Origin: Strigamia acuminata
Taxonomy: Eukaryota; Arthropoda; Chilopoda; Geophilomorpha; Linotaeniidae
Length of the DNA stretch: 64,000 nt
Direction of reading: 5' to 3'
Assembly: GCA_949358305.1 (NCBI GenBank)
Contig: OX442323.1
Location: forward strand, 1,796,001-1,860,000
Shown: in pieces, positions 26,268 to 60,054 of the stretch
Layout: the number at the start of each line of letters is the position of its first letter
Numbering within the stretch: the stretch's first letter is position 1
Translations under genes and position numbers: made by a program
Notes under the pieces: model-generated
Seen by the model: the letters and a program-made list of their open reading frames with translations, nothing else
Told to the model about the DNA's origin: nothing
The model's database searches: none

Positions 26268-26269
26268 CG

Positions 26270-31568: not shown

Positions 31569-31689
31569 AACCCTCCTTACAAATTCTTATAAGTTTTTAA
31601 ATGAATTAAGAAAAACTAAAACTAACATTCAATGAAAATTCGAAAACAAAAACAAAAAACATGAATAAAATATTATTTCGAACTTAAAA

Positions 31690-35790: not shown

Positions 35791-35905
35791 TTTTCACGAC
35801 GTTCGATTTTTGAATTCCGTCACGTGCGCACTTCGTTCTCACTCGAAACTTCGAAAAATGTCGTCTGAGTGCCGTGGATACTTCTTTTCGAAGAAAACCG
35901 GCCTA

Positions 35906-35914
35906 CTGCTACCA
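35906..35914 (-). other. Copia primer binding site, initiator tRNA-Met type
   Basis: On the minus strand TGGTAGCAG lies two bases after the 5' LTR. It matches the complement of the 3' end (CTGCTACCA) of eukaryotic initiator tRNA-Met over nine bases, then diverges. Confidence 0.6.
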
Positions 35915-35916
35915 CT

Positions 35917-36117
35917 TGTAGGTTCCACTAAGGTTCCTTGAAGATTTCGAATGTCCAAGATGAGTTGAAATCAGCACACAAAAACGGATGAAACATAAAC
36001 ACGTCTTTACTTTGCGAAAGTTTTAACAACAATGCCACTGCACGTGCATAACGTGCATGCAACGTTCAAATACATAAAAACCTTTTGATAATTTGTAACA
36101 ATTGATTAAATCTAACA
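35917..36117 (-). repeat. Copia LTR (5' LTR relative to the element)
   Basis: 201 bp, starting TGTAGG and ending TAACA on the plus strand. It appears identical to 31368-31568. TCCGC follows at 36118-36122. Confidence 0.93.
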
Positions 36118-36122
36118 TCCGC

Positions 36123-38249: not shown

Positions 38250-38835
38250 AAGATTCTAAATATGAAAAGAATATTCTAAAAGATATTGATTCAAATCAGT
38301 TATTGAATATTCAAATCGAAATTCGCGAAGTCACCTGATAAATTATGACCCCGGGTGGAGAATAAAAGATTCGTTCTATATTCAGTCTTCTAACACACAC
38401 GTGAGAGAAGAAGAACTTCGTCGAGTTCAACAAAAATCACGGTCAAACGCGTTGACATTGTTAGCTATTAATCAACGAATACAGGTATTATGATTATACA
38501 TATAAAGTTATATATATATATCATGAAATTTCTTTGAATATTCGAAGAAATACGAACCAGCGGAATTCGTTTATTAGCGGTGGAGGATTTGAAAGCCACG
38601 TGCTCTAAACTCCAAGTTGTCGTCGAGGCGACTACACTCATAATTCCACAAGATACGCTTCTAAAGGAAGCAGGACATTTTCGTAAGTTCGATAAAATTA
38701 TCAATACACGAAAATATAAAATTGTAACGAATTATAATTATAAAATTCGTAAATTCAGTTACGCGTTTTCTCAATAGAGGGCGCACGCATACAAAAGTAT
38801 TGCAAATAAAACTAAAACGTTTTCTATATTTGTAG
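38250..38835 (+). other. Element A pol-ORF3 spacer ending in a splice acceptor
   Basis: About 590 non-coding bases contain a short TATATA-rich stretch near 38510. The end, TTTTCTATATTTGTAG (AG at 38834-38835), is a good splice acceptor four bases before the ORF3 start codon. This suggests ORF3 is expressed from a spliced subgenomic mRNA, as env is in retroviruses. No donor was identified. Confidence 0.55.
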
Positions 38836-38839
38836 AATT

Positions 38840-40444
38840 ATGGTCAAGAAGATACCGATTAAAAAGCGGCGAATTGTGATTCAGTCGAGCTCTTCAGAGG
38901 AAGACAATACGCCCACGGTCAACCCGACCATCGTAACGATCCCAGGAGCACCAAACACTCCTATTGTGCTCGACCAAAAAGGATGGGACATATTAACCTG
39001 GGCCCGAAACAACCCAGATGCTCTCCCAAAGGAAATTCGCCCAAAAACGGCTGTACCCAAAACGGCGATGGAGGTTACCCAAGAAACCTTCATTATACCA
39101 AAAAAGGACAGTTTCTCCAAAAGCCATCCGTTACAGCCGATCCATAAACCAAGTACGAGTCGAATGGAAGATTCGTCGACCTCTCATGAGAGAAGTCTGG
39201 ACGAGATTGTCAAATTAGAGGCGAATCGAAATCCCGAGGGAAATCGCCACCAAGACAACAAACAGCGAGAGTACGTTCATTACGACTCGCCGCCACCCAC
39301 GACTTCGCGCGAAGTAGTGTATACCCCTAGATATAATACGGCTAGAGGGAAACGTACGTTTGTGTCCACCAGAGCCCCCAAACTGCAGCCGATGACTGCT
39401 CAACAAAGAGCAGCTAGTAAGCAAGAAAAGGCATTACGTCGAAAAGCCGCCTGCGATCGTGACCTGGAATTGGGAATTCCACACGACAATTTGGAGCTCG
39501 CGAAGGGCGAAATACCGTGCCCTTTCTGTTTCGGGGTCGGCTGGATGTCCGGCTCCGGGACCGGATGCCATTTGGCATCGTGCGGGAATTGTCTCGGAAC
39601 GAAACGACGATTAAAAATTCAACCTTGGAACCCTAAGTTTGTTTCGTACGTGATTAAAGGGTTGTTCGATCCAGAACCCCGAAAATGGGCAACCTGCCAC
39701 CTTTGTAAAGCTTTATTGTCCAACGATGGCAAAGCTGTATACGAGGATCCTGAATTTATGAATTCGCGAAGAACGCCCCTTGGCCTTCAAATGGGTCTGG
39801 AAAAAATGCCAAGTATTGTCTGTGTAGATAATGTGACTCAAACGGACGAAGCCGCACTAGTCCCCATGCCAAACGTTGTGGAGCATGGAATTTCGAACGA
39901 GTTCTTAATTGAACCTTACCAAGTTCCTCCGAACACCAAGATAGGACAGTTATTTGTTTGGGAGGTTGAATACTACTACCCCATCGTGGCTCGACTTGCA
40001 ATTATCATTTCTCGTCAATTGGTTACGGGTCTACCCGATCAAATAACAGTAGGATATGTGACCAGGATCATGCAAATGATCTTGAATCCACGTCGCGTTG
40101 AGGGCTTCAACATTTTGGAGCATCTTTGGAATCTGCTCGTGGGAAAAATCGCAGATGAACTGAAAAACCAAATATGTGAAGGCTGGATTTTGGTTTTGCC
40201 CCCGGTGATTGACATCTACGAAGATCTCAAAAAGATGATCAATGAAGAAGACGGATCGACTGATCAGCCTGAAGCAGGGGATAAAGCACCCGAGACTCCC
40301 ATCGCCACGGAAGTTGTTGCGACCACTGCATTTTTCATAGATCGGCAACCGGAAGAACCTCTTCCCGCCAAGAAACGTGGCAAAGGTTCCTCTTCGAAGG
40401 ATAGGCAAAAGCCCGCCACGGAGACCGAAAAAGGTCAAGATTAA
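38840..40444 (+). CDS. Element A ORF3: non-env accessory protein, 534 aa, unknown function
   Basis: This intact frame sits between pol and the 3' LTR, where env would be. It has no signal peptide, no convincing fusion peptide and no anchor segment, so it is not a typical envelope protein. The N-terminus is basic (VKKIPIKKRR). Residues 50-70 read DILTW...RPKT, and residues 194-214 run PMT...GIP. A cysteine-rich stretch at about residues 227-289 contains CPFCFGVGW, CHLASCGNCLG and CHLCKA, reminiscent of DnaJ-type CxxCxGxG zinc clusters. Residues about 360-460 look helical and hydrophobic (VTRIMQMILNP, EGWILVLPP). The tail is charged, with KKRGKG. Three blocks match ORF3 of element B by eye. I do not recognise a known family. 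Coding status is well supported by length and position. Confidence 0.85.
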   Translation: MVKKIPIKKRRIVIQSSSSEEDNTPTVNPTIVTIPGAPNTPIVLDQKGWDILTWARNNPDALPKEIRPKTAVPKTAMEVTQETFIIPKKDSFSKSHPLQPIHKPSTSRMEDSSTSHERSLDEIVKLEANRNPEGNRHQDNKQREYVHYDSPPPTTSREVVYTPRYNTARGKRTFVSTRAPKLQPMTAQQRAASKQEKALRRKAACDRDLELGIPHDNLELAKGEIPCPFCFGVGWMSGSGTGCHLASCGNCLGTKRRLKIQPWNPKFVSYVIKGLFDPEPRKWATCHLCKALLSNDGKAVYEDPEFMNSRRTPLGLQMGLEKMPSIVCVDNVTQTDEAALVPMPNVVEHGISNEFLIEPYQVPPNTKIGQLFVWEVEYYYPIVARLAIIISRQLVTGLPDQITVGYVTRIMQMILNPRRVEGFNILEHLWNLLVGKIADELKNQICEGWILVLPPVIDIYEDLKKMINEEDGSTDQPEAGDKAPETPIATEVVATTAFFIDRQPEEPLPAKKRGKGSSSKDRQKPATETEKGQD

Positions 40445-40795
40445 GCCATGTTCGAATTTAAAAACAATTAGCAGTTTGTTTGTGTGTTCTGTGATAAAAG
40501 AATATAATATGTAACCGAAAATTCTTTAACTAAGATTTTTGTAAGAAGTACTTCTTCGTTATACGAGAATGACTTCATGTTTATTTTTTTAATAACCAAA
40601 TTATTTTTATAACCGTCTCTGAAAAGAGAAAATAAAAACAATTTTTGAGCATCCTAAGGATAAGAACATGTTTATTAAAAACACTCAGGGGCCTTATAAA
40701 TATTGGAAATAAAATATTTATTAATATGGATGAATTTGACACAAATGATATTCCTAAAGAATAACATAAAATATAAGAGTATATGTTTAGTTATT

Positions 40796-40805
40796 AAGGG
40801 GGATG
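40796..40805 (+). other. Element A polypurine tract
   Basis: AAGGGGGATG lies directly before the 3' LTR, the expected place for the plus-strand primer. Confidence 0.75.
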
Positions 40806-42464
40806 TGTGACAAATTAGCAATAGATGGCGCCACTAGTATTAGCGGCAAATTCAACCTCGAACTTACTATTTTCCATATAAATAGTTCACAAACATATTA
40901 TTATGTTTGATACGACTAAATGTGATTCACATCGATAATATAAAGATATATTATCAATACTTAAGAAGATAAAATGGGCGTTACTGCTTTATCACCGATA
41001 CCTGACGAGAAACACGGTTTCGAAGGTATTTCCGTTCTGTGTATCCATTTCCTGTCCCCGGTATCCAGTTCCGGTTTGTGCTAAAAGATTAGCATAATCC
41101 CAATTTGCATCTCCGTATCCACTTCCTGCGATACGAGATTGGTGGAACTTAATCCCACCGAGTATAAAACTCCCTGACAACAGGAAGTTAAGTTAGTTCT
41201 TGATTTCTGGTTATTTGGTATGTTCCGCATGTCAAATAACTGTTTCTTACTCAGGGCATGGTCCTACCGGTCCATGCATAGCATGGCTCTGCTGAGCCAT
41301 GCAACCCCCGTCAACTGAAGGCGAAGTTCGGACTGTTCATGTTTCCGTCAAACGGTCTTGCCGAGGAGAAAGCCTCCCGCATAAGTATCCTCGTGGTCGG
41401 ACAATAGAATCACGTGTGATACCAAAGTATTTAGTAACCGTCAGTAGCACTGTTACTGCAAGAGATTGACTCCATCACCTGATGGTGCCAAAGCAGTCTG
41501 CATGCAAAACATGCAGTTACCGCCAGTAGCACTATGTGTTTGGGAATGTTATATCTCTTCGGTGATGGTGCCAAAGCAGTCTACTTACGAGTAGTATCTC
41601 GGGTGATTAATTCTGTTGTGCAGAACTGCGGGCTATATCCCCCTGAATACCAGTGCCGTCTCTCACCGCACTGTTATTTAGGGCACGCGCGATACTGTTC
41701 TGCTCAGCAAGGCGAACTTTGACGGCAATTGTGTGTTGCGATGTTTAACCTTTATTATATTTTGTAGTTGATAAATACACCCTAATTGTTTAAACTTGGC
41801 AACAAGTTAACAACCGAAGTAAGTCACGAGACTTATTTCACTGTATGACGAATCAAATTCGTAACAATAAATTGAATACAATTTATTGAGTTAATTTATT
41901 AAACTCACAACATCCCGAATTAATTATAATTCAGAAGTGGAACCTTGAAGAATAAATAACTTCATTTATTCATTGCCAATTTCCAACCCTAGTTGTGGCG
42001 GTGCAGTTAAAAGTCAACCGCACCTCTCGGATCGAACCAAGAAGCATTACACGGACCATTACACGATACGAACCAGGAACGTGAAGGAACCAGTTCCACG
42101 ATTACGGAGCGCCGACGGAAGCCGCGAGGACACAGCCAGCCCGGCTACGCGTAGATGACATCTTTAAACTCGGTCGAGCGGGCGTTTTGCCGTTCCCGAA
42201 CCCCGGATCACCAATAACCGTAATCATATTATTTTAGGGCTGTTTTACAGCCAATTTCATGTATAGTTTAACTTGTATTTAACTTGCCAAATGTCGGCAT
42301 TAGAATTTGTATAACTTTTAGGATTGATTATATTGTTTAGTAACAATAAATGTCACGTTTTGAGAAACTTGTTGTCTTTATTTTATCTCGTATTTTAATC
42401 ACTTATTCACGCGACTTATACCCGGTACTATCATGCGATAGGAGTTGTGGTCGTCACCGTCACA
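40806..42464 (+). repeat. Element A 3' LTR (1659 bp)
   Basis: Direct repeat of 24618-26267, differing visibly by a 9-bp insertion near 41505 and otherwise almost identical on reading. It is followed by the ATAC duplication (42465-42468). Confidence 0.95.
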
Positions 42465-42496
42465 ATACTTTGCTACAAGTGACTAAACAGTAGAAG

Positions 42497-43751
42497 ATGT
42501 TTTTCCAAAAAGCAGGAAGTGGTTGGTTTTTCCTGGTCTTACAGCTTTCAGGTAAATATTTCAGATTGAGACAAAGAAGAATTCTTGTTTGAATTGTTAG
42601 AATCACTAGAACAACTAGGTGTATTCAATTTTCAAAAGTCGAATTTTTTTCTCCTAATATCACTTAAAGAAGTGACTTAAACAAGTACGTACATTCTCGA
42701 TTGAACACACGAAAAACTGAACTGAACCAAAAAGATGGCTAACTACGTACAACATGTGGTAACATTAGCCAATAGGAGGAGCAGAAGTGATTTCAATGTC
42801 ACTTAATAGTGCCTGTTTTGCAATAAATTGGTTTTTTATTCTATTTTGTACAACACTAGCTGCATTCAAAAACTCTAAAACGCATGCAAAACTCGTTTTG
42901 TGTTTGTACGTGACGTCATTCCCATTGAACAACATTGGCATGTTTTTGAATGCAGCTAGTGAAAAGTATTCTGTATTCTCGGAACAACAACAAACATCGC
43001 ATAACAATCGGTTACATTTAGTGTTAAAATTCACCACTACAGAAAAGACATAATAATTATATAGTGTAAGTTGATCTTTATTTTTTTTATTTGAACATTT
43101 CAGTGGTCATCATTGGCTGCATGATTGGTGTCTCTGCCACTGATTGCCCAAGTGGTTTCGTAAAGCTGGGTGATGATTGTTACCATTTTTCAACACAGAC
43201 TGGTAGTTTTTTTGATGGACTTGTATATTGTGAAGGCCTAAAAGCGCAGCTTGTAAGCATCGACTCACAACACAAATCTGAAGCTATTAATGCTTATATG
43301 TCCGAACAACCCAGCGATCGTAAGCGATGTGTAGAATTTGTGCACAAAATATGCAAAAGCATTAATATTAGTTACCGGTTATTATAAAGAAATCAGCTTT
43401 TTCTTTTTATGTGCAGATTTTCTATACAAATTATCCACAAACGAGTACGCAGTAATAAATAAATATGTTTTTTGTTTACTACTTTCAGCGCATCTATATT
43501 ATTGGACCAGTGGTTTTGATTTAGACCGAACCCAAAATCGCAAGTTTTATTGGTTTTCCGCAAGAAAAGACTTGACTGTAACAAATTGGTGCGCAGGCGA
43601 GCCAAACAACGCTGGGATTGGGAATTCAGAAGGTTGTATTCACCTTCTAAGAGTAGATGGACAACCTTGTTGGAATGACATTGATTGTAACACAAAAATA
43701 GCACACATACATGGTTTTGTACCGATGCGATTTTTATGTGAATACCATTGA
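42497..43751 (+). CDS. Secreted C-type lectin, single carbohydrate-recognition domain
   Basis: Three exons (42497-42551, 43104-43319, 43499-43751) encode a secreted C-type lectin, probably a pattern-recognition or gut protein. Exon 1 and the start of exon 2 give a signal peptide (GWFFLVLQLS, then VVIIGCMIGVSATD). The domain starts DCPSGFVKLGDDCYHF and continues AQLVSIDSQHKSEAI, YYWTSGFDL and FYWFSARK. GEPNNAG carries the EPN motif of mannose-type binders, CWNDIDC carries WND, and FLCEYH closes the domain. All conserved cysteines appear present. A polyadenylation signal AATAAA is at 43770-43775. Element A lies about 30 bases upstream of the start codon, so the gene may have lost its own promoter or gained the LTR's. 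Intron 1 (552 bp) carries small mobile elements. Confidence 0.92.
42616..42712. repeat. Small inverted-repeat element in lectin intron 1
   Basis: GTGTATTCAA (about 42620) and TTGAACACAC (42701-42710) form short imperfect inverted termini around about 75 bases. Similar GTGC(A/G)TTCAA termini occur at 23721 and 23831. It may be a very short MITE. Confidence 0.4.
42856..42960. repeat. MITE, 105 bp, with perfect 19-bp terminal inverted repeats
   Basis: ACTAGCTGCATTCAAAAAC at 42856-42874 is the exact reverse complement of 42942-42960. The inside contains a CGTGACGTCA palindrome-like stretch. A related fragment with both ends and a deleted middle is at about 18597-18632. It is probably a non-autonomous DNA transposon; the superfamily was not determined. 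Confidence 0.8.
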
Positions 43752-44004
43752 GATTTATTTGTAAGATGAAATAAATGAAACGACTATACCGTATCATTGT
43801 TATTTTTGCTGAATCTTACTTGCGAGATTTTAACCTATTACTACATTCCAACTTCACATACTCAATATGTATCTATTTTGGGTATATTTTATGACCAATT
43901 TTTGTGAAAAATCCATTGCAAATTTAGATTGTACTCACAACTCGATATCTGGCTAAATATGTAGTTGGAATTGAATCTGATTGAAAAAAGAAATACTTTC
44001 TTAC

Positions 44005-44127
44005 CGTAGAAGATTGTGATGCAAGTGTTCTGTTTGTTCTGAACCATACTTCGATTGGTTTATGTTTCTTATTTTCTAAATGTTGCCACAACACGATTTT
44101 CACATCATCGTGCAGTTCAACCGCCAT
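44005..44127 (-). CDS. Possible first exon of an unidentified gene (uncertain)
   Basis: A 41-codon open segment starts with ATG at 44125-44127 (MAVELHDDVKIVLWQHLENK) and ends in phase 0 at a GTAAGA donor. The composition looks protein-like and no transposon similarity was noticed. No convincing second exon was found before the lectin gene's 3' end. It may be a remnant or a small gene. I do not recognise the family. Confidence 0.25.
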
Positions 44128-44707
44128 ATTGCTCGAATTACAAAAATTAAAGTAATACAGAATTTTAAATTCCGGATAGTAATAACAGTTATTACGTTTT
44201 ATTTTTCTATTCCTTTAAAAATAGTATAGCGAAAAACGTGAATTCTATTTGAAAAATTGAACATTGAATTGAAAGTTCCCGCGGTATTTTGACGGTTGAA
44301 TCCATTTTGATGCGAGTTTCAACCTATCACCTTCACATCGTGGGTTTAGATATTGTGTGACATCATTTAATGTCAATTTGTCACAACTTATCAGTGAGTT
44401 TTTGCACTACCTGGTGGATACAGCCGAAAACGATCATTCTGCAGGTGAGCTTCACGCTGGACTGGGACGATTTTTATGTCAAAGGCTGTACGTCGGATAG
44501 GAAGGAAACTCCTCATGACGCTCTGGCACCTCGCGGCGACTACTTTCATTCTTAGTTATTTACGATGGCCTGCTCGCAAATTCGATGAGAAATAGAAATA
44601 AAATAGAAATTTCAATTTGAGATGAAGTCGCCATTTTGCCAAATGGAAAGTGAACAAAGAGAACACATTAAAAATTCAAGGTTAAACGATTAAAACAATC
44701 AAATTCG

Positions 44708-45150
44708 ATCCCGGACGGGCCCCCAAGTGCGGCAATCCGGGTTTTACTTAATATTTCACTAAGAATAATTAAGAAAATCGTCATTGAGATGCCATATGGG
44801 ACTTCTAATCAGTGGCTTTAGTTTGTCTAGGGGAATAATACAACTTACACAACACTTAAAATAAAATAAGAAAAGTTTTAATCGAGTTAAATAAGGTCAC
44901 AAAACTAATAAATACAAAAAAAAGATAAATATGAATTGGCGGAAAATGTCTTCTCCGCTTTGGCGTCACATACTCACGGTTGCTGTCCTACGATGACAAC
45001 GCGTGAAAACCGATTTATGTGGAGCATGCTCGACACAGAAATCCTCTCAAAACACACAAAAGAGGTTTCGATTACTTTTTAGTAATCAAAGCAAGGAGCG
45101 CTACTCTGTAAAATGAATACAGATTAGCAGTGAGTCTCAATCCTCCCAAT
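44708..45150 (-). mobile_element. Relict LTR plus primer site of a Ty3/gypsy element
   Basis: On the minus strand TGGGGGCCCGTCCGGGAT (44708-44725) matches a tRNA-Pro-type primer site and is very close to that of element B. Two bases away, TGCGGC (from 44728) begins what would be the inner end of a 5' LTR lying to the right. The LTR sequence does not resemble that of element B. The right boundary near 45150 is a guess, and no gag or pol was found to the left, so this is a fragment. Confidence 0.5.
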
Positions 45151-45773
45151 ACTACGGATCCCACTTAGCGAAATTTGAGCATATGTTTGAACACAGTTTG
45201 AAGTAGTTGGAAGCAAGATCAAGAGTGATTAGAGTGCGCCAAAACGGTTTGGCCCACCCTAGATTCTGCTCAGACAGCCTGCGCAGAACAGTAAAATAAG
45301 CTAATTGCATGCAAACCTCAGGACAAGCACGAGCAAAGGAAAGGAAAACTCCTCCCATAATCTGCACTAAGTTGCGACATCAAAAGATGCGCCTTACAGC
45401 ACAAGTGTTAGAAACATCTGGCGCTGTGTCAAGGGATATATTCCGACTTCAAGTAAATAAAATGTAATTTTACAGAGATAATATTTTATTCCTCCAAGAG
45501 TTAAATTAGAAGCATGGTGAGCACTCAAAGGTATACTTTTGAGGTCACCAAAATTCCAACAATTTATCACAATCTTTTCCATCCAAATGCAACAGAAAAT
45601 ATTGTTGCTGCACTTTGATACACACATTGTCAAGTGTAGACTGATAATTTTTTACTTGGCAAAAACATGAATTTTTTTTTATTAGCGAAACACTTGAGGA
45701 ATTTTTTCATTGAAAAATGATAAGTAATCAATCAAAGTGTATTTGTTTAAGATATCATTACATTTCGACAAAG

Positions 45774-45829
45774 TATAAAAACACTCAATTGCTCACGCTT
45801 AAACACTTCAATTTTTAGCACAAGTCGAG
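45774..45829 (+). promoter_or_regulatory. TATA promoter and non-coding first exon of the allergen-repeat gene
   Basis: TATAAAA (45774-45780) is followed about 25-30 bases later by CACTTCAAT, a plausible initiator. A short non-coding exon ends at a GTAAG donor (exon end 45829). The acceptor (GATAG, AG at 45904-45905) is just before the start codon at 45914. Confidence 0.65.
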
Positions 45830-45913
45830 GTAAGACTCAATAGAAATACTGTATACCGGTACTAAAAACTTGTTCTTGATTTTAATAATTTTTTTTTTTG
45901 GATAGCCAACATA

Positions 45914-48900
45914 ATGAAGATCTTGATTTTGTTACTTTTAGTTGCAGCAGCTACAGCAGCTCCATCAGGTATATTTTAAACAGATATAAATTGCAATTAC
46001 AATTATCTTTGCATCAGAAATTAGAAAAAAATAGCAACTTACTTCCACAAATTCGAAATTACTACCGTAATCAGAATCAAATTGTTACAGTAAAAAGAAG
46101 AAAAGAACTTAAAATTAAGTTGGCTATTTTTTTTATAACTTTTATACTGATTAGGTATGATTGTAAATGGCAAGAGCATTAAGGTTTTTCATGCATACTT
46201 AAATTCATCCTGTAAGTGTTATTTAAAGCAAACTGCTGCATCAATTATTGCCTTGCATGTATAATGTTACAAAGAATAAGACCTGCAGCTACTCGCTGTG
46301 TAAGATCAAGTTTTTAAAAAAAGTTAAGCATAAACCTTACAGTTTAGTCCAGTGAGAATTGGTGGTGAACTGACACTGATCTTAGATTCAGCAAGTTCCT
46401 GTGTTGGAATGAATTAAGGTAGATCGTTTAGAACATTCCTTAGAATAGCACATACGAGTTGCCCATAAATTTTTAATTCAGTAAGGGGAATCAGAAAAGA
46501 AATTTAAGTACTTAACTGGTCAAGTACTTAAGTGTGGATATGCAACTGAGCATGCCCAGAACATTTTTAAAGTTTGTTTTTACACACTGGGCATGCTCAG
46601 TTGCATATCCACACTTAAGTACTTGACCAGTTAAGTACTTAAATTTCTTTTCTGATTCCCCTTAAAGTTCTTAATTGTGCTTAAGTGCTTAAGTGCTTAA
46701 GTGCTTGAGTGCTTTCTTAGAAATTAGAAAGGTCATTCAGTCCCAAGAATACATTAATTAGGTGAACAGTAAAACTGTCCTTTGTGTATGCAAAAATGAA
46801 CAAGAAGAAAAAATTATTTTTATAATGGAAAAATGAGCCAACAACAAAGTGATCAGTTTTGAATTATTCTCACTTCTGAATTCGAATTTAAAAGAACAAA
46901 TTGCACGACATTTTTTAGTGATTATTTTGTTCGTCTAGTGATTGCACAAGTAAAAAAAAAAGAGTCGCGTTCAAGCGTTGATTAGTAATAACCTTGATTT
47001 GTAATACAGTATTACACAATCAGATAAAATAAATGTATGTCACATTTTCATAATTGTCTAGCGCTGCAGCACAGAGAAAGAAGAAATGTGAAAAATTTGA
47101 TCGACTCCCTAATAAAAGAAGCTGGTGTGTTAAACTTGTTGCCATGGATTCAAGAAAAAGTAAATAAGAAACAAAAGATTGCAAATTGGCCACTAATTGA
47201 CCATATTTATTTCGCTTTGATTTTTTAACAGATAAGAGATGATCCTGACTCCGAAAGAGTTATTGAATTTTTTCAAAAAGAACAGTGGGATAACATCAAA
47301 AAAGACTTAAAAGAATGTCCAACATACGAAACCGTGAGACAACTAAGCTTATAAATATGCCAATGTTGGTATTTGGTGCAGAGATGTGTATTAAATTTAT
47401 TTTTCTTAATTTCAGATAAATGCTAAACTGCAATTAGAAGGCATTGATCTCGTCGAAATCCTCGAAAATGTCAAACAGTTTGTGACAGGAGGCAGCAGAA
47501 AATTCCAAGCTCGTCGTCCATTAGGTGAACATGTCAACGAATTTATTGAGAAGCTGGACTTGGAAAACATCATGGCCATCATTCAGGACAAAGTAGTCCA
47601 TCACATAGAAATTTAATCTTGCAATTGGCCAAATAATACCGATATGATTACGGTTTAGGTTGATTCAGATCCGGATATGAAGAAAATCATTGAGTTCATG
47701 GACAGCGACGATGCGAAGGCACTTGAAGCGTGCATGCGCGAAAGCGATGATGTCAAAGACGTGAGTCTGATCATACAAAGTTAGACCCAATGGCGTATCT
47801 ATGAAATATTAACAATGCTTTAAAAAAACATACCAAAACAAAACAAAATCAAATACCCTACCTATTTTAATCGTATAATCGTTTAATCGTGGTTAAGCTA
47901 TTTGTATAAACATTCTTACATTTTCTTTAAATCGTAGTTGTTGGACGAACTTTACAGGGAAGAAATAGATGTGGCGAAACTAGTGGAAATGTTTCGCGCG
48001 CTCTTCGGACTTTCGACTTATTACAACGAAGCGAGAAATGTCAAAGACTTCATTGACGAACTAGTGAAAGAAGCTGGCCTCCTTGATTTATTACCGTGGA
48101 TTCAAGAAAAGGTAGAGTTTTATCATTAACTTAGGTAAACGCTTACATTTTTCTGCTTGTAAATTCAGATTCAATCAGATCCTGATACTGAACGTGTGAT
48201 CGATTTTTTCAAAAGTCCTAGCTGGAACAATATAAAGGAAGCTCTGAAAAGTTGTCCAGGTTACGAATCGGTAGTGAAAATTAAATAGTTAAATCGTTTT
48301 GTTTTTCTTTCCAAACTGCTATTGCAGTGTTTTTAACTTGCAGATGAACACTAAACTTAAAGCAGAAGGCATAGATCTTCTCAAACTGCTAGAAGAGGTC
48401 AAGCAATTTGTCGTCGGAGGCACCAAGTTCCAAGCGAGGCGTCCATTGGGCGAACATTTGAACGAATTTCTTGAGAAAATCGACTTGGAGAATATAATGG
48501 TGCTTGTTCAGGAAAAGGTGTTTTGTCGATTCCTAATTCCTCGTTTGCTTTTGCACGAATAAGAAACATTAATTTTGCAATTGCAGCTCGATACCGATCC
48601 AAACATGCAAAAACTGATTAATTTCCTGAACAGTGAAGAAAACAAAGGGATTGAAACTTGTATGAAAGGCAATGAAGACGTCAAAGATGTTGGTTTAAAT
48701 AAGTTATTTCTACACATTTTTCACAATACAAAATAATACGCACTCTTCTTAATTTTAGTTGATTGAGAAATTGTACGAAGAGGGCATTGATGTTGAAAAA
48801 CTTACGGATATGTTTAAGGCAATGTTCGGCGTTTCTCGTTATTACAATCAAGGTCAAGGAAGAAGTGTTAAAGACATGCTTGAAAATTTGGTCCACGAAA

Positions 48901-49694
48901 CCGGTCTTGACAACTTATTATCATGGCTTCAGCAAATGGTAATTAAAACCAACGAACTTAGTAAAATAAATAAAAATAAAACAAAATAAAATATTAAAAA
49001 AAACTGTTCGATTTCCTAGATTGCGAGTGATCCAGATGTAAAACGAATTGTGGATTTCTTCAAGGGTGACGACTGGAAAACATTGAAAACACAACTGCAA
49101 CATTGTCCAAATTATCCAAAGGTTATCAAAGTTAACAAAACCGTAGCGTTTCTGCCGTTTCGTTTCAAACGCACCTACTAGTATTGTTTTCTGCTTTATA
49201 GATCAAAGACAAATTGAAGGGAGAAGGCATTGACGTGAATGAAATTTTGGACGGCATCAAGAATTTTGTTACAGGAGGAAATTCACTTCGTTTTTCAAGC
49301 AGACGAAGCCTGGGTGAACTGCTAAACGAAGTTCTCGGCAAACTTGATATTGACACAATCATGCTTGCAATTACGGACAAAGTAAAGAATTTCATATAAT
49401 TTAGAGATTGCAATAAATTAATAGCTATTGAATGCTGCAGCTGGACCACGATCCTGAAATGAAGAAACTTGTGGATTTTCTCAAGGGAGAAGACTTCAAA
49501 GCCGTTGTTGAATGCATGCGTCAAAGTGAACAAGTTCAAGATGTACAATTTTATTTCATACATTTATATCGCTTAAAAACCAATTTTTACTATCTCAACT
49601 CTTATTTCCATAGCTTATTGCCAAGCTGAAGGATGAAGGCATCGATGTTATTCGTTTAGTGCATGTGCTCAAAGCACTTTTTGGAGACGACTAA
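45914..49694 (+). CDS. Secreted insect-allergen-repeat protein (Bla g 1 / Per a 1 type), 14 coding exons
   Basis: Exon 1 (45914-45968) is a signal peptide (MKILILLLLVAAATAAPS). Thirteen exons follow, at 47062-47159, 47232-47333, 47416-47592, 47659-47760, 47938-48111, 48169-48270, 48344-48517, 48587-48688, 48759-48938, 49020-49121, 49202-49381, 49441-49542 and 49614-49694. They make three tandem units of four exons each. The unit pattern is LLPWIQEK, then SDPD..R(V/I)..FF, then the GIDLxxxLexVKQFV block with RRPLGEHxNEFxEK, then DPxMKKxxxF. All internal introns are phase 0, so units can duplicate cleanly. Each unit corresponds to the ~190-residue duplex of the insect-allergen repeat family, midgut proteins that in cockroach bind lipids. 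The array is circularly permuted: exon 2 lacks the start of unit 1, and exon 14 supplies only that start. The gene ends at TAA 49692-49694, and AATAAA is at 49766-49771. Confidence 0.92.
46482..46664. repeat. Long perfect-looking hairpin element in intron 1 of the allergen-repeat gene
   Basis: Arms 46482-46558 and 46588-46664 (77 bases each) are apparently perfect reverse complements, with a 29-base loop. Within the arms, AAGTACTTAA motifs make smaller palindromes. The high arm identity means a recent fold-back element or recent arm conversion. Confidence 0.85.
46674..46718. repeat. Short tandem repeat of AAGTGCTT-type units
   Basis: About four to five copies of TTAAGTGC(TT) follow the hairpin at a distance of about 10 bases. 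They resemble the AAGTACTT core of the hairpin arms. Confidence 0.6.
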
Positions 49695-49899
49695 CTTGTA
49701 GCAACTTATTCACGTGAAATATTTTGCTAATACATTGTCACAAAAACAAAAACTGCTTTATGAGAAATAAATTTTAACCCAAACAATCAAATGTTTCTTA
49801 TTCTTTCAATTATTTTTTTTTCAAATTAACTTGCATGTGACCTAATCTAGGTCACAACTGACAACTACTGGCAACTCAGAATGTTTCATTAACAGTTTC

Positions 49900-50050
49900 C
49901 TGTTTGGTTCCAAAAACCCTCGAATAGTATCCGCGGCTACTACTTGAGGGCGGCTCTTATTTCAAACCACCTCTCTGAGGCGCGGCTACTATAAGAAGGC
50001 GGCTACAAAACGAGGGCGACTCTTAATCGGTAAAATATGGTAAATACCGT
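49900..50050. repeat. GGCGGCTACTA-type repeat fragment
   Basis: Several short CGGCTACTA, GGGCGGCTCTTA and GAGGGCGACTCTTA segments end at TACCGTAG. Such CGGCTACTAT...GAGGGCGGCT strings recur in the ends of DNA transposons in several invertebrates, from memory. Classification is not possible here. Confidence 0.4.
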
Positions 50051-50097
50051 AGTTTAAAAAAATACATTAGACATAAACAAAAAAAAATAAATAAATA

Positions 50098-50630
50098 AAA
50101 CATTAAAATGCGCAATGCAATTTTCATTTAAAAGTCAAAAGCTTTTTCCGAGTGCGAGAGTTTCACTCAAAATTTGATGAAACTGAAGGGAGCCCATGTG
50201 TCGCTCATGGTATCGGAATAGCGTAACAGCCCTTTCCCTTAGCGTCATCTTGGTGAACATGAATGGAAAAGAGCCAAGAAGCGCTTGTCTTGTAATGACC
50301 AATCGCCACTGGGTCTCCGGCATAAGTTTGGCCCTTTGCATGGTCCGCTCTTGCACCATTCTGCAAGTCTCCCAAAGTAAAAGTTGATTTTACTTAGGGG
50401 TTGACTATCAATAGTGGAACTTTATAAAAGAAACAATTAAACACAAAAGATGGTGTTACCTATGTTTCTACTGTTGAGCTCTTGAGAATTGTGGAATAAA
50501 ATATATTCTGTCTATGTCGCCGCGTTAAATAGGATCATTCTGCCACTCTTCTACACCGTCCTAGCCAATTGGAGCCAAACATATATTACATATAGTTAAA
50601 CATTCATGAAAAATAAAATAAATTTTATTA
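50098..50630 (-). repeat. Inverted ICK promoter/5' UTR intron copy without coding exons (copy 3)
   Basis: Read on the minus strand, this matches about 21090-21620 closely, including the GGCTCCAATTGGCTA box, TATA-like CCTATTTAACGCGG, the non-coding exon ending AACATAG/GTAAC and most of the 5' UTR intron. Similarity stops near the splice acceptor, before the signal-peptide exon. The promoter end abuts element B. Confidence 0.8.
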
Positions 50631-50637
50631 CTATGGT

Positions 50638-51632
50638 TGTCGCGCTCAACTCGATCTGTCGCTAATACGTGGTATGAGTCACTCTCTAATCTCGCAATAC
50701 CGCTTTACTCAAGCGGTTACCCAAATAATGTAACACGGCAAGACAATGTAAAAGGTAAATATAATAAATGTATTTATTATACGGGAATATACAGTTAAAA
50801 GGGAATAAAATATGTAAGGGAATAAAAAGGTAAGAGGAAAGGGGTGTGAAGTTGGCGGGAAACTGGTCGAGGTCGTCCTTTGTCGCTGTGGATCCAAGAT
50901 GGCGTCCGCGTGGCAACGTGGTGTCGTCTTGGGCCGGCGTGGCAATGAATGGCGTCCTCGTCTCACGTTTCTCGTTCGGTCCTTCGGGCTCACGCTGGTC
51001 GGGCGCGAGTGAATGCCTGAAAGGTCTTACTTCTGGTCTGTTGTCTAGGTTTAGGGTTTTTTGTAGGTGTCCGGCGATCACACAGCGGCGGACGCTTGGT
51101 GGTTCCCGGCGATACACACAGCGGCGGGAACGCTCGTCGTGGTTACTGCAATTTAGGCTTGTGCGACCGTTTGTCTGCACAACTCGCTAAATTGGAGTAG
51201 GTTTACTATTTCTAGCTGGCTTGCTAAAATAGTGTGGTAATCTTGTTTCGCAGGTTACTCTGCGGAGGTTAACACAAATCAATCGTACTCACGTTGAAAG
51301 TCCCTTGTCCTAGGTCACTCCTGAAGTCTTTGTACTTAGGCTTGATCGTTTTAGGACGTTTGGCTTTTACGTGTATCTTGGTTGATTTTTGTGTTGGTTC
51401 TGCCCGCTCAGTGCAAGGCGAATTCCTTTGCACAAAGCGGGGGTGACAGGTGACTAAAGCCACCCAATAGTGGAGAAGACGAATCTCCCCCACTCCCCCA
51501 GGGCAGACGCCCGTCCATTGACTGGATGTCAATGCTCTGAGGGAAGGGAGGCGCGCGTGCGACTCCCCTTCTTTACCCGTATGTAGGCCACGAGAGAAAC
51601 TCTTCGTGCCCCACCCCAGTCGGGTCACCACA
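50638..51632 (-). repeat. Element B 3' LTR (995 bp)
   Basis: It matches 63158-64000 over the whole 843 bp visible there, with no difference noticed. Plus-strand ends are TGTCGCGC and CACCACA. Three short frames inside occur in both copies and are not considered genes. Confidence 0.93.
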
Positions 51633-51649
51633 CGTCCCCCTCCCAGCTC
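51633..51649 (-). other. Element B polypurine tract
   Basis: On the minus strand GAGCTGGGAGGGGGACG directly precedes the 3' LTR. Confidence 0.7.
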
Positions 51650-51671
51650 TGACCGCCGGTGTTCGGAGCGA

Positions 51672-54539
51672 TCAATCCTTCTTGCTGGGACCCGACGCTG
51701 GATCCATCGCCTGGGCGAAACTCACTCCAGGGACGGGCGGCTCAGCGCCGGGCGGCACAACGCCGGGCGGCAAAACCAGATCTCCAACCAAGGCTGAAGA
51801 CTGGTCGCGGGGGTCCTCGTGCTCGGAAATGAAGCACAATGCGTGGCCGCCGGCTGGCTCGTACGGGGCACGTCTCCTCTCATGCAGCCAAACCCGCGGA
51901 ATGAACGCCGAAAACCCGGAATTGGTGTGCCGGATCGCGTTCGCCTCCGCGGCCGTTCGAGGCGCACGGTGGGCCCTCAGCAAACGCTGATGGAGGATCA
52001 AATCGGTGGTCTGGCGCACCTGGTTGTGTAGCCAAACGAATACCGATTTCCCCTTGTCTCTCTGCGCGAGGATGAATTTGCGCGTCGCCGTCGTCATCGA
52101 CAGCTGAGAGAACTCGTCACACAACTTCTCATAATAGTTCGTCTGAAGCTTCGCCGCTTTCGCTGGCTTGGCGCTCTTCGGAACTACCGCTTGTTGGACA
52201 GTCTCTTCCCGCGCTTGTTGGGCTGCGGGAGGCGTCAGGCTCTGGCGAGCGGCGGACATCGTTGGTGGCGTCCGACATAACAAGCGTCTGGGCTTACCCG
52301 CCGCATTTGATAGGACGGGTGTCTGTGGTGTCGCCGCTGGTGGCATCGGTGGCGGCGGCGGAGGTGGAGTTGGGGCTCCACGTGAAGCAGTCGAAGAGGC
52401 GGCGTCGCTCTCCATCGGCTCTTCACTCGTGACCATCATTGCGTGTGACTGCGCTGACGGTGTTGGCTCCCACGTGGTAACGGCGTGGCGGAAGGCCATG
52501 CTCCGCAACTTATACCCCTCCCATTCGGGGTTCACCACGTCCCGGGTCAGCTCGAAGCGAGTCATCGCCGGGTTGGGGAGAATGGCGCTCCATTCCCCAA
52601 CGAGTGCGCGAGGTATCTGCACACCCTCTCTGTCGACTACGGACCAACAGGCCATCGCCTGTCGTCCGACCCCAAAGAGCGAGGGGGTCAATAACTGGAC
52701 CATGATTTTCGTCAAAGCCAGCTGTAGACTGCGCCGATTTACAGGGTTGCTGCGATCAGGATCTGCAGCGAACGCGCGCGAGTGGTGCCGCATCATCGAA
52801 ATCCCCCACTCGATGAAATGGCGCTGAGTGACGTCGGCGCCCTGCAGAGCAGCGGCGGCGGCCCTCGGGTCCTCCATCACAAATGCGAAGGCCAAGAGCT
52901 CTTCGATCGATGGATTGGCTGCCTCTCGAGCCAGCCGTGCGTTTTCGTCACGCTGTTCATACCACATCGCGGTGCGGTCGTGTCTTGCCTTGCTCGGGTA
53001 ATATTCTCCGAATCGGGCGTTATGGCATTCCCGCGCAATGCTCTGGTGAACGGGCAACATCACCGAGTCGTCGACGGCCAAGTTCGGCGTAGTGCTCGAA
53101 CCCGGCATCGGCGGCGGCGGCGGCGGGGGCTGCGTCGGCGGCGGCAGCGGCTGTGTCGGCGGCGGCAGCGTCAGGGACTGCTGTGCTGGCAACGGTTGCG
53201 ACGTTGATGACTGCGTCGGCAACAGCAACGTCAAAGACTGTTGTGTTGGCGGTGGCAGCGTCGCTTGCACTCCAGTCGGCGTGACTTGGAGTGCCGGGAG
53301 CTGGCTTACAGTACTCGTCGGTGGAACGACGGCCGTAGGCGCGTTTTCTACACGCGGTCGCGAATTGACATATTCGCTTAACCACCGTGCCACTTCGTGT
53401 GGAATCACGGTACCATGCTCGACGACGCCCATCTTGCGAGCGAACTGCATCGCGGGGTCGAAACGCGACAATTTCTTGCGTTTCATCTGGGTGATGATCT
53501 CGCGAAGGTCCCGCGTGTCTGGCGCTAGGACGCGACGCTCCCCGGAAGATCGGCCACTCGACTTCGATCGTGCCTCTCTCGCTTCCTTCGCTTCGATTGC
53601 TTTGAGAGCGTGTTCGGGAAGGGGAATTCCCCGCGCCTCGCAGCGAGCGAAATACCGCTCTTTGCGGTCTCGTTTCCGCTGCTCACGGTGAGTCAGCGGA
53701 TGTCTGCCGACACGGGGACGAGAGACTCGCTCTTCGTCACCCGAAATCCAGACTTCTCGAGTCTCTTTACCGTCTTTCATCTGACGGTTGACGAACACCC
53801 TTGGTCTGGTGTAATTTGCGGGGTCGCGCGGTGGCTGCGCTGACGTTCCCGCTCCGTCGTTGACGGTCGAGTGCTGTTCGACGCACTGTTTCTTCGACCG
53901 TCCCGGGGAGCGCGATTCGCTGCCCCCGGTTCCCTTGGAGCGCTTGCGCTTCCTTGGGAAATTATATTTGGGGCCGAGAATTCCCAAATAGTGGAGTTGC
54001 CACATTTCAGCTTGTGACGTGAGAATCCCCATTCTCGGTCGCCACTGTGGCGTAACTTCTCCCTGCCGAATCTGCTCGCACCACAGATGTATATCGGCGG
54101 TGCTCATTCCGTCGTCTTGCAAAATCCGCTCTGCAACCGCCGGCGCAGTGTCGATTAGCTGCTGGCGGTAGTGTTGATACACTTCTTCGCGGGCCTCCTC
54201 GGTCTCGGCCGCTTGCCACGCGAACAACACATGCTCCTCCGCCGGCCTGCCGGAGTATTGGCTCGACAGGGCCGGGTGGAAGATTGGTGACTTCGGGTCA
54301 TCGATGCGAGCGAGCTCTGCAGCGACGACGTTTCGCACCGACTCCGGGAACGCGTCCAGGAGTGTACAATCGTTAACCCAACGCTTGGCGAGGGCGCGCG
54401 AAAATAATACGCGCAGGCGGTATGGCTTCGCATCTTCGCCAAAGCAGCGGCGCAGAAAATCGGGCAGTACGCCTCGATATATGCCCGCTCGCACTATGCA
54501 TGCGGGGCTGAGCGCTCCCCATGTGTCTCGGAGCTCCAT
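51672..54539 (-). CDS. Element B ORF3: large non-env accessory protein, about 955 aa, unknown function
   Basis: This open frame fills the env position. The start chosen is ATG at 54537-54539 (MELRDTWG), because it follows directly on a strong acceptor (pyrimidine tract plus TTGCAG). The frame stays open upstream to 54926, with another ATG at 54699-54701 also preceded by CAG. Residues about 149-169 read DIHLW...RPRM. Residues 190-330 are very basic (KRKRSKG, REQRKRDRKER) and contain PLT...GIP. Residues 400-480 are Pro/Thr/Gln repeats (LTLPPPTQP). Residues about 570-660 hold a helical block with LTKIMVQLLTP and GEWSAILPNP. A second proline-rich stretch and a conserved-looking domain (NYYEKLCDEFSQLS, FVWLHNQVRQT) follow. 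No signal peptide, fusion peptide or anchor was found. No family was recognised except ORF3 of element A. Confidence 0.8.
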   Translation of the reverse strand: MELRDTWGALSPACIVRAGIYRGVLPDFLRRCFGEDAKPYRLRVLFSRALAKRWVNDCTLLDAFPESVRNVVAAELARIDDPKSPIFHPALSSQYSGRPAEEHVLFAWQAAETEEAREEVYQHYRQQLIDTAPAVAERILQDDGMSTADIHLWCEQIRQGEVTPQWRPRMGILTSQAEMWQLHYLGILGPKYNFPRKRKRSKGTGGSESRSPGRSKKQCVEQHSTVNDGAGTSAQPPRDPANYTRPRVFVNRQMKDGKETREVWISGDEERVSRPRVGRHPLTHREQRKRDRKERYFARCEARGIPLPEHALKAIEAKEAREARSKSSGRSSGERRVLAPDTRDLREIITQMKRKKLSRFDPAMQFARKMGVVEHGTVIPHEVARWLSEYVNSRPRVENAPTAVVPPTSTVSQLPALQVTPTGVQATLPPPTQQSLTLLLPTQSSTSQPLPAQQSLTLPPPTQPLPPPTQPPPPPPPMPGSSTTPNLAVDDSVMLPVHQSIARECHNARFGEYYPSKARHDRTAMWYEQRDENARLAREAANPSIEELLAFAFVMEDPRAAAAALQGADVTQRHFIEWGISMMRHHSRAFAADPDRSNPVNRRSLQLALTKIMVQLLTPSLFGVGRQAMACWSVVDREGVQIPRALVGEWSAILPNPAMTRFELTRDVVNPEWEGYKLRSMAFRHAVTTWEPTPSAQSHAMMVTSEEPMESDAASSTASRGAPTPPPPPPPMPPAATPQTPVLSNAAGKPRRLLCRTPPTMSAARQSLTPPAAQQAREETVQQAVVPKSAKPAKAAKLQTNYYEKLCDEFSQLSMTTATRKFILAQRDKGKSVFVWLHNQVRQTTDLILHQRLLRAHRAPRTAAEANAIRHTNSGFSAFIPRVWLHERRRAPYEPAGGHALCFISEHEDPRDQSSALVGDLVLPPGVVPPGAEPPVPGVSFAQAMDPASGPSKKD

Positions 54540-55914
54540 CTGCAATGATGGAAACAAAATAATTAATGAAATCGCCAATAACACGGAGATAAATAGGGGG
54601 TGGGCTCGAGGAACGTCGCTGAAACGTGCGACCGCTCGTCGAGTCCTATTCCTGTTCATTGATTCGTCCTTGTCAGGAAGAAAAGAGTCTTCTTGGCACA
54701 TCTGGTTCACGTCCAATGATAACCACGAGACGGAATCGAGCGTATTAATCCGGAAATTTTTCTTCGGATTGTTTAATTTAAAATTAAACTGTAAATTTGT
54801 ATTTAAACCAATAAATTCGCGAAATCGTTCGTGAAAATCTCCAATAACAATTTTAGAACATGTAAACAAATGTTCTTGTCGTGAATTAACTTGTAAAGAA
54901 ATAAATTTGTCTAATAATAACTCCAAAAATTCGGAGTTAAAGTCGAGTTAAAAACGAATCTATAATAAATTAGTGTCATCGGGAAAAAATTCGCAAATAA
55001 AATAGCAAATAAAAATAGAAACAACGTTCTATAAATTCTTTCAAAATCCATCCAATAAATTATTCCCATTTCTGGAATATAAAAAGAAAGCTCGTTTCCT
55101 TTGTCTCGTTCGTGTCAATTGTCGTGAGTCATCTTCAAGGAGCGAGGCGACAGTTTGTCTGCTATCGCGTCCTTGAAGACAAATAATAGGAGAAAATACA
55201 ATCGCTCTCGCGATCGTGGATATTAGTATAATAATTATACACTATTTCGAACGCAGAGCGTTCATGTCAAGTATTAGTCAAGTGTATCTTTAATTCGACC
55301 GCACGGAGCTAAATCTCGTGCGGCGATGCCGACTACTACCTGATCGGGTGGAACTACGTTTATGTCCGGGTCCCAATTCTCGTCATGATGCTGTATTTCA
55401 AGCATTTCCTCGTCCCCTCCTTCCTCATCCATCGTGAGGATTGCGCGTTCAGTCAGACCACGATTAAAAAACTTGAAAACTTCTCGTAAAATGGATCAAA
55501 AACTTGGTTAAAAATGCACTCGCTGTGTATCACGTGCGGACGACGATCAGCTGATTTTAGCGGAAGTCCGGGTGAAAACGAGGCAATCGTGGTGGGTTCT
55601 GGGTAATTTTACTCCAGAACCAGGTGTTTATGACTGTGCGCAACAGCCCGTGCGCATGTTACGCTACGGGGCTCCTTTGTTTCTACGCCCGTGCGCGATC
55701 GCTGCTACGGGGTCTTTTGCACGCGGTATCCGACCCGTGCCGATAATTTTGCTACGGGTCCCGCGTTTCCACGCCATCTCGTGACGCGAATTCGACCGAT
55801 ATCCGCTTCGTTGGACTTAGCGAAATTTTCAGAGTCTCGGATTTTGATGGCTAGCGCTGTCGATCGGTCAATTTTTTTTGTTTTTTCAGCGTCGCCATCG
55901 ACTCGTAACGTTTT
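54540..55914 (-). other. Element B pol-ORF3 spacer with splice acceptors
   Basis: About 1.37 kb separate the pol stop from the chosen ORF3 start. The last part is open in the ORF3 frame only by chance, in my view. Its translation includes a hydrophobic run (FISVLLAISLIILFPSLQ) that is exactly the pyrimidine-rich tract before the acceptor at about 54540-54542. Confidence 0.5.
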
Positions 55915-58900: not shown

Positions 58901-60035
58901 ATCTGTATGGGATCTATCTCTGTCACCGCGTTTAATGGGCGGTAATCAATGCATAGGCGTGGGTCCGAGCCCGGGCGCATCACGAGCACAACTCGCGTCG
59001 CGTATTCTCCCTGGGCCTCGGAGACAATGCCACTGTCTAGCATTTCTTGGCACATTTTTTGTACTATTTCACGTTTTTGCGGGTTCATTCCCTTATACGC
59101 AACTCGTATAGGTTTATTATCCGTCAATTTAATTTCGTGAATAGCCCTATTCGTTCGGCCCGGTTTTTTCGACAGGATCCCCTCATATTTAAGTAGGACC
59201 CTTCGTAGGGCTGCCGCTTCGTTTAATTCTAAAGCGGCGTCGGCGACAAGCGTTTCCACTACATTGTCCCGTTGCAATTCTGTTACGAATGCTTTAAAAT
59301 CGTAGTCTTGAACGAATTTCTTTAGGCCTTTCTCCCACTGTGTCTTGTCGGCCGCTTCTTTGATAAGAGCTGGTGGCACGACAATTGCGGGTCTTTCTCT
59401 ATCATTTCTGATATAATTCCAAGATTTCGTTATTGGATTTGGTTGTATTTCCATTGACGCCATGAGGTCTAAGCCCAACAGAAAAATTCTGTCGCACGTG
59501 GGCAGGACCAGGAAAGGGTGCTGTTCTACCCCTCCGAGCCACTCCATGGTCAATAATATAACTCCTTTTGGACGCGCCATTCCGTTGGCGGTTTTTAGAC
59601 GTACATTTTTATTAACGCCTTTTATCTTATCGGTGAGACCCAATGATGCTACTATGTCTTCGGAAACGAACGAGCGATCTGCTCCCGAGTCTAGCAGTCC
59701 CATAATTTTTTCGCGTTCTATTGTCATGGGCAGCATACATAGGCGGCTGGTATATTCGACCGCCACGTTGCACATGAAAACACGAAATTCTTCTGTGTCT
59801 TCGACTACTTGAGGTACTTCTTCAAGCAGTAGGTTTGGTTCTTCCGCCTCAGCCTCAGCGTTTGCGGTAATTACCTGCAAAGCGTTGTTGGCCCTGTCTT
59901 GGATCTGGGCGTTAGCTATGTCACTACCCATTTCTTTGACTGGTGGCGGTTTATCGAACCCTTTGTTAAACCCCTTCTTCTTCATGAATGGCGCAGACGG
60001 TCGAGAAGTTATTTCTTCGCCGCCTGCGCTGACTC
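55915..60035 (-). CDS. pol: Element B Pol (protease, RT, RNase H, integrase), intact
   Basis: Pol is entered by -1 frameshift from gag. The first in-frame ATG (59983-59985) is not needed. The protease motif is GLLDSGADRSFV. Reverse transcriptase has LCIDYRPLNAVTEI, VTTMDLSKGYWQVEM, MPFGLVNAPSTFQ and catalytic YLDDIVIAS. RNase H has FILHTDASRVGLGAAL, ELECLAVVWAIRKFR and ADALSRAPV. Integrase has the zinc domain HGHPLASHAGVSRTL with CQRCQACKP and the core DVMGPKPV, SDNGPQF and STYNPRTNPVERLNRDI. KRDGPYVI is the GPY-type C-terminal motif. A Glu/Thr/Asn-rich tail ends at 55915. No interruption is present. Many motifs match element A pol, but overall identity is modest, so these are distinct lineages. 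Confidence 0.95.
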
Positions 60036-60054
60036 GTTTTTTGACTCGTTTTTT
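59991..60054 (-). promoter_or_regulatory. Element B -1 frameshift signal with two tandem slippery heptamers and a stem
   Basis: On the minus strand two in-frame A AAA AAC heptamers lie 12 bases apart (60048-60054 and 60036-60042), inside a repeated KNES codon string. Six bases after the second, GCGCAGGCGG (60020-60029) can pair with CCGTCTGCGC (59991-60000), ten pairs with one G-U. A smaller stem, GAAG/CTTC, sits inside the loop. The gag stop lies in the loop. The -1 frame is open from the heptamers into pol. Confidence 0.85.

Follow-up and report, generated by a model that had tools for sequence, protein, structure and literature searches.

Two Ty3/gypsy elements in the window (the whole stretch of 64,000 nucleotides that was analyzed) each carry a long third open reading frame (ORF3), and dN/dS between genomic copies is low for the pairs measured (0.06-0.28); therefore the A-type and B-type ORF3 genes are under purifying selection. 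The A-type ORF3 of element A is present in at least three families (A, A' and A'') and the B-type ORF3 of element B in two (B and B'), and most of the scored copies are open. This bears out part of an earlier sequence-only reading of the window, which had seen a non-env accessory gene maintained across lineages and had named dN/dS between copies as a check. Tentatively, and at somewhat less than an even chance, we propose that the ORF3s are accessory genes on a predicted spliced subgenomic mRNA and act in the nucleus on the unspliced RNA of their own element, by analogy with CERV of the gypsy-type element Cer1.

Two elements with a separate third gene

Element A lies on the plus strand. Its 5' LTR (24618-26267) matches the 3' LTR (40806-42464, from the comparison of the LTR pair) save one 9-base gap over about 1650 bases, and is followed by a tRNA-Gln-like primer-binding site (26270-26287; we take the tRNA to be tRNA-Gln). 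Gag (27061-29172) has a zinc knuckle (2e-06) and a Retrotrans_gag match just under the cut-off (6.4e-05). Pol is split into a first part with protease, RT and part of RNase H (29217-31382, Pfam) and a second part with the RNase H end and integrase (36102-38249, Pfam and BLASTP to element B pol), and the open frame of the 534-aa ORF3 follows at 38840-40444. The interruption of pol is a nested copia-type element on the minus strand (31368-36117), with a single 1366-aa ORF and identical 201-base end repeats.

Element B is on the minus strand and its 5' LTR (63158-64000) runs off the end of the window; the 843 bases in view are 100% identical to 50638-51480, within the 995-base 3' LTR (50638-51632, likewise from the LTR pair). 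The primer-binding site (63138-63155) is tRNA-Pro-like with two mismatches, the tRNA presumably being tRNA-Pro. Gag is found at 60009-63089 (zf-CCHC 3.8e-06, Retrotrans_gag 2.2e-05), pol with protease, RT, RNase H and integrase at 55915-59985 (Pfam), and the 955-aa open frame of ORF3 at 51672-54539, with its ATG at 54539.

Gag, pol and the third ORF are thus each separate in both elements, and the order protease-RT-RNase H-integrase between LTRs, together with a primer site, places both in Ty3/gypsy (Metaviridae). The pol proteins of A and B are 34-38% identical, and the gag proteins have a capsid region (E 1.6e-10) and the zinc knuckle in common. As the sequence-only reading had stated, a long ORF, open in each case, stands between integrase and the 3' LTR, and the two elements differ in their LTRs and, with the tRNA identities given above, in their primers. 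Elsewhere in the window there are host exons of nucleoporin (5.8e-47), myotubularin (3.7e-65) and C-type lectin (9.7e-05) type at 9089-9493, 13503-13970 and 43070-43748, which show that the host is an animal. Tandemly similar host exons (KEAGLLDLLPWIQEKV-type) lie at 47028-48562, and for these a Pfam scan gave no match above cut-off.

ORF3 copies in the genome are mostly open and under purifying selection

The longest stop-free runs are 542 codons for A ORF3 and 1091 for B ORF3, whereas the longest among 500 simulated sequences per ORF were 259 and 488, and the codon usage of gag-pol fits frame +1 of ORF3 best in both elements, though weakly. In each of the two elements, GC3 of ORF3 exceeds that of gag/pol by 0.14-0.18.

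The genome (237.5 Mb, 157 contigs) was searched for relatives. With A ORF3 as query, the best 81 of 689 candidates comprised at least 68 near matches, fragments included, at 83-100% identity and at least 13 rows of the second family, A', at 37-38%; six of the 81 rows had an internal stop. A query with A' separated A' subgroups at 71-75% (best 82 of 1327), and the cysteine region of A' matched at least 32 rows of the third family, A'', at 46-49%, as well as a few short fragments intermediate between families (best 150 of 594). B ORF3 found at least 48 rows at 98-100% identity, one with a stop (best 48 of 2815), and its residues 490-730 found at least 108 rows at 77-100% and at least 42 of a second B-type family, B', at 62-63% (best 150 of 836). 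A motif pattern (115 matches, none when reversed) also brought up locus L064, which was rejected as an ORF3 relative; its one ORF of more than 150 aa reads, as judged by eye, like a gag protein.

The dN/dS of A ORF3 against the copy L008 was 0.06, six A' pairs gave 0.09-0.28, four A'' pairs 0.06-0.14 and eleven B-type pairs 0.10-0.24, while four A-type pairs were saturated and yielded no value. Between B and the B' copy L039 the ratio was 0.15 at a dS of 1.67, and regionally it reached 0.39-0.42 in the B linkers.

Features of the ORF3 proteins

The claim that neither ORF3 looks like an envelope agrees with hydropathy and motif strings. The hydropathy maximum over 19 residues is 1.27 in A ORF3 and 1.39 in B ORF3 (B taken from its acceptor), without a transmembrane peak, and within these two kinds of data the transmembrane domain, signal peptide and furin site of errantivirus Env-F were not found. 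There is one N-glycosylation motif in each ORF3, one furin-like string (RGKR) in A and none in B. Basic clusters are KKIPIKKRR in A ORF3 and RKRKR and KRKK in B ORF3.

A-type ORF3s have a basic, serine-rich start and a zinc-like cysteine cluster of CxxC pattern (residues 227-289, at 39518-39706 on the plus strand) that is largely kept in A' and A''. B-type ORF3s carry patches of basic residues, an extended proline-rich linker and a stretch for which helices are predicted at low confidence, and the cluster is absent from them, just as the sequence-only reading had observed for A and B. The conserved A-type core consists of block 1 (GWDILxWARxxPxxLP; in A'' LNWxxxHPxxxP), block 2 (roughly RxxxC.RD...G.P) and the cysteine cluster; the A'' copies (L067-L071) retain the start and the cluster, with a C-terminal part unlike that of A and A'. 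Judged from its sequence, the A-type cluster could bind zinc and RNA, and the nucleic-acid-binding role suggested earlier is therefore plausible for A-type ORF3s, where the cluster is kept in all three families, and unproven for B-type ones.

Protein database searches gave no match at threshold with A and B ORF3 (7995 and 7992 candidates scored) and none at E 1 with residues 200-480 of A (952 candidates). Pfam, PHROGs and PDB sequence searches gave no significant match, GDSL or DEDDy domains as in rotifer ORF3s were absent from the Pfam scans, and the one weak match worth noting was to ZNF512_C2HC, from A' members (E 0.0014-0.0015; 18.7 bits, where the cut-off is 27). Scanning IMG/VR, a poor source for animal elements, with ORF3 and with pol gave no result. 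Single-sequence AlphaFold predictions were poor for A ORF3 (mean pLDDT 36) and gave helices over residues 496-617 for residues 490-730 of B ORF3 (mean pLDDT 50), and the predicted structures had no PDB fold match at E 0.001 or better.

Predicted splicing and a possible nuclear role

AG sites were scored with a splice-acceptor matrix. The predicted acceptor just before A ORF3 (38816-38835, plus) ranks first of 285 AG sites in 36127-40805, and two of the 308 sites in 26268-31367 (30756 and 28612) outscore it. In element B the ORF3 ATG directly follows the AG, and this predicted acceptor (54540-54560, minus) ranks second of 780, after 55071. A predicted acceptor lies 0-5 nt before the ORF3 start in the copies read from all five families: the site before the ATG is TTTTCTCTAG in A', CATCCTTCCAG in B' and, in A'', CGTCTGCAG (L069, L070) or TATTTTAG (L071). 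No matching splice donor was identified for these acceptors. Between B pol and ORF3 there is a small acidic ORF (55274-55432) with, by eye, a possible in-frame donor (CAG|GTAGTA), and this ORF could be an upstream exon.

We rejected an upstream start of B ORF3 at the ATG at 54701, with the hydrophobic stretch that follows; the frame there crosses a polypyrimidine tract and the AG, and in eight of the nine diverged B-type copies with the start read (L039-L042, L044-L046 and L048; the exception is L047) the frame is open for just 8 residues ahead of the ORF3 ATG. Against this rejection, near copies of B retain the longer frame, mostly of 1091-1093 aa.

CERV of the C. elegans LTR retrotransposon Cer1 is described, in the part of the report used here, as a spliced nuclear protein that is needed for nuclear export of the genomic RNA and whose cysteine-rich loop is required for function (PMC10309623). 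If ORF3 is reached by splicing, the genomic RNA would retain an intron, which is the problem that CERV solves. The predicted splicing, the basic clusters, the lack of membrane features and the CERV precedent lead us tentatively to favor a nuclear RNA role: ORF3 would be translated from a spliced subgenomic mRNA and in the nucleus would act on the unspliced RNA of the element, most likely aiding its export or stability. The recurring acceptors, the low dN/dS, the basic clusters, the A-type cysteine cluster and a layout of the pol-ORF3 fusions that resembles Cer1 exon 5 support this role. Against it we count the missing donor, the higher-scoring AG sites, the lack of the cluster in B-type ORF3s, the different cysteine spacing of CERV, the absence of a fold or sequence match and the loss of the ORF3 start and acceptor in the fusions.

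Pol-ORF3 fusions in both lineages

Some copies have pol joined to a C-terminal portion of ORF3, with the ORF3 start and the acceptor lost. In the B lineage, L065 follows pol through residue 1340 and then enters B'-type ORF3, in frame, at about residue 480, and in L050 and L051 pol 1351-1352 is joined to ORF3 from about residue 241. The 1838-aa frame length of the L065 kind is found in 11 of the 150 listed pol rows, L065 being the one that was read. In the A lineage, A-type pol is joined in L061 to A' ORF3 from residue 210; its frame length of 1370 aa recurs at a second place (L061 was the copy read).

Such fusions in both lineages, and one type recurring by frame length in 11 of 150 listed pol rows, are what would be expected if ORF3 were an integration-targeting or virion protein working beside integrase or Gag. 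We consider this unlikely, though not strongly so: the separate ORF3 is the common form, the L061 junction precedes and removes the GPY/F end of integrase, and the fusion copies may be trans-mobilised by-products. As the fusion copies have lost the ORF3 start and acceptor and the 1838-aa frame length nevertheless recurs in 11 of 150 pol rows, a complete ORF3 is apparently not needed in cis, which counts against the nuclear RNA role.

Relationship between A-type and B-type ORF3

The sequence-only reading had held that A and B ORF3 are kin through three collinear blocks. The motif strings of the blocks are present, with limits slightly off (block 2 of A is residues 184-214, not 194-214), and so is the last motif of block 3, with a length of 7 residues (GWILVLP in A, EWSAILP in B) instead of 8. 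The kinship itself found no support. BLASTP of A against B ORF3 gave E 0.47 and, in another run, no match at E 1. The best A-B local score was attained by 4-21% of whole-protein shuffles depending on the matrix, with 16 (full) and 25 (windowed) of 400 for BLOSUM62 and 67 and 85 of 400 for BLOSUM45; with cheap long gaps the counts were 43 and 20, and 47 and 24, of 400, and a separate run gave 50 of 1000. A collinear chain of ungapped segments was attained by 40 of 150 shuffles, and both the reversed B protein and B gag scored higher than the A-B block chain. Taken one by one, in regions picked after being seen, the blocks were equalled in 685 (block 1), 603 (block 2) and 11 (block 3 region) of 1000 shuffles. 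By pairwise statistics, blocks 1 and 2 are not above chance and block 3 is marginal.

Profiles were built from 13 A-type loci and window A and from 9 B-type loci and window B. Near duplicates, fragments and fusions (L001-L007, L010, L011, L014-L018, L040, L049-L051, L054, L060, L061) were excluded, as were the near-identical L019-L038; the fragment L043 was removed from later rounds, and five A'' copies joined in the last hhalign round. These same-genome profiles gave no significant hhalign match in any of the three blocks, also after A'' was added, which is the outcome that the sequence-only reading had named as refuting its shared family. With single sequences the alignment fell outside the blocks (P 0.37). 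The best whole-profile alignment paired A 32-97 with B 732-797 (E 0.016; in a repeat A 23-97, E 0.014, 0 of 40 shuffles as good) and weakened to E 0.28 (equalled by 5 of 30 shuffles) when A'' joined. This match is non-collinear with the blocks and lies in a proline-rich part, and, given its weakening with A'', we judged it to be composition and not homology. Within the families, A' has altered the block 3 string of A (VTRIMQMILNP becomes AVHVMKLIFNANR or similar), and none of the five A'' copies read has the block 3 domain; in B' the three strings largely persist (GIP becomes GRP).

One homologous family with three common blocks would fit the same position of both ORF3s behind a predicted acceptor, the GC3 excess of 0.14-0.18 over gag/pol in both elements, the retention of the ORF3 C-terminal part in pol fusions of both lineages, the 11 of 1000 shuffles for the afterwards chosen block 3 region, and a profile pair cut around block 1 that aligns in the block 1 register, as 21 of 60 shuffles do equally. 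With no significant block match between the profiles of relatives, and with block 3 changed in A' and missing from A'', we find it improbable. The test is low in power, as fast ORF3 divergence could hide true homology. The A' copy L061 has 81-83% pol identity to A, and the ORF3s of A and A' are 35-36% identical; A'' and A share 54-55% in pol and only about 22% in ORF3, so at the 34-38% pol identity of A and B a homology of their ORF3s could be undetectable. Pol of A'' (two copies) resembles that of A at 54-55% and that of B at 35%, and therefore the A-type ORF3 tracks the A pol lineage. Judged from these comparisons, A and B ORF3 either belong to separate protein families or are members of a single family that has diverged beyond sequence detection.

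Probable exchange of the 3' module in the B lineage

The gag and pol pieces of B' are nearly identical to those of B, beside a 3' module (intergenic region, ORF3 and LTR) that is 67-74% alike in DNA. Judging adjacency by coordinates from the match lists, 17 of the 42 listed B' ORF3 rows adjoin, in one case as a fusion, a pol row that matches at 99-100% over 200 aa, 29 adjoin a gag row that matches at 100% over 200 aa, and 35 adjoin one or the other. L039, L041 and L042 are 67-72% identical to B over the intergenic region, ORF3 and LTR start, with short stretches up to 84%, and L065 is 74% identical over ORF3 and more of the LTR. Compared per 100 bases, the identity of the B' copy L066 to B stays at 95-99% as far as about 55700, roughly 200 bases past the stop codon of pol, and from there on is 42-79%, which places the switch at approximately 55650-55750 (minus strand). 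Uncorrected synonymous divergence over 380 pol codons is 0.11 and 0.13 in two B'-type fusion copies, against an ORF3 dS of 1.67 in L039 (different loci). All 150 listed gag rows (best 150 of 1863) are 100% identical over 200 aa, and by this measure B/B' gag-pol seems to have gone through a recent burst.

Selection at the protein level is, by itself, a poor explanation for the contrast between gag-pol and ORF3. Near-identical gag-pol beside a diverged 3' module points instead to exchange of the module or to conversion of gag-pol, either of which would yield it. In the explanation that we propose, each ORF3 is passed on as a 3' module along with its LTR, and the B lineage would have kept gag and pol and swapped the module, probably by template switching in reverse transcription.

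Such an exchange resembles env exchange, and a role of ORF3 in cell-to-cell transmission, as an envelope or small fusogen, could also draw on the position and predicted splicing shared with insect errantivirus env (PMC12992720, in the part of the source used) and on the single RGKR string of A ORF3, but it is very improbable given no transmembrane peak, low hydropathy at the ORF3 start, one N-glycosylation motif per ORF3 and no furin-like string in B.

Comparison with known systems

The comparisons drawn here use parts of the cited papers, and CERV is compared by description only. CERV (517 aa) is similar in size to the A-type ORF3 (534 aa), and both it and the ORF3s are non-env, have a basic NLS-like motif and diverge fast (PMC10309623). 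The A-type cysteine cluster may correspond to the cysteine-rich, zinc-finger-like region of CERV, although the spacing of the CERV cysteines (C193, C195, C200, C269) is unlike the CxxC pattern of the A-type; B-type ORF3s are without the cluster. Splicing is reported for CERV and predicted for the ORF3s. Unlike the ORF3s, CERV has five exons and shares exons with gag (PMC10309623); its last exon, exon 5, is in the Cer1 polyprotein reading frame (PMC10309623, S1 Fig legend), comparable to the in-frame C-terminal fusions of ORF3 to pol in both lineages here.

Insect errantivirus Env-F is, in the part of the source used, likewise a third ORF behind a splice acceptor (predicted for the ORF3s), but its transmembrane, signal and fusion features were not seen in the ORF3s (PMC12992720). 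Bdelloid rotifer LTR elements also have non-env third ORFs in several lineages (PMC5408684); as described there, these are recognisable enzymes (GDSL, DEDDy), whereas in the libraries searched the ORF3s matched no known family. Plant elements have additional ORFs between pol and the 3' LTR that, by description, are accessory and of unknown function, as the ORF3s are, and in some cases nuclear (PMC7264820). In the open-access literature we noticed no reports of such ORF3 families or of such a module exchange.

To our knowledge, non-env third genes of animal Ty3 elements are mostly orphans. A more specific version of the nuclear RNA role, to which we give a low probability, is that the 3' module would be a matched pair of an RNA-export factor (ORF3) and its RNA target in the intergenic intron or LTR, so that gag-pol would be kept, the pair swapped and the fusions mobilised in trans. 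If true, Rev/CERV-like export control would be a general feature of animal Ty3 elements, in the form of an exchangeable cassette. Five ORF3 families, many open copies, an ORF3-LTR module exchange beside near-identical gag-pol and natural fusions are found together in one genome, and such material makes the function of non-env ORF3s and the recognition of their own RNA directly testable.
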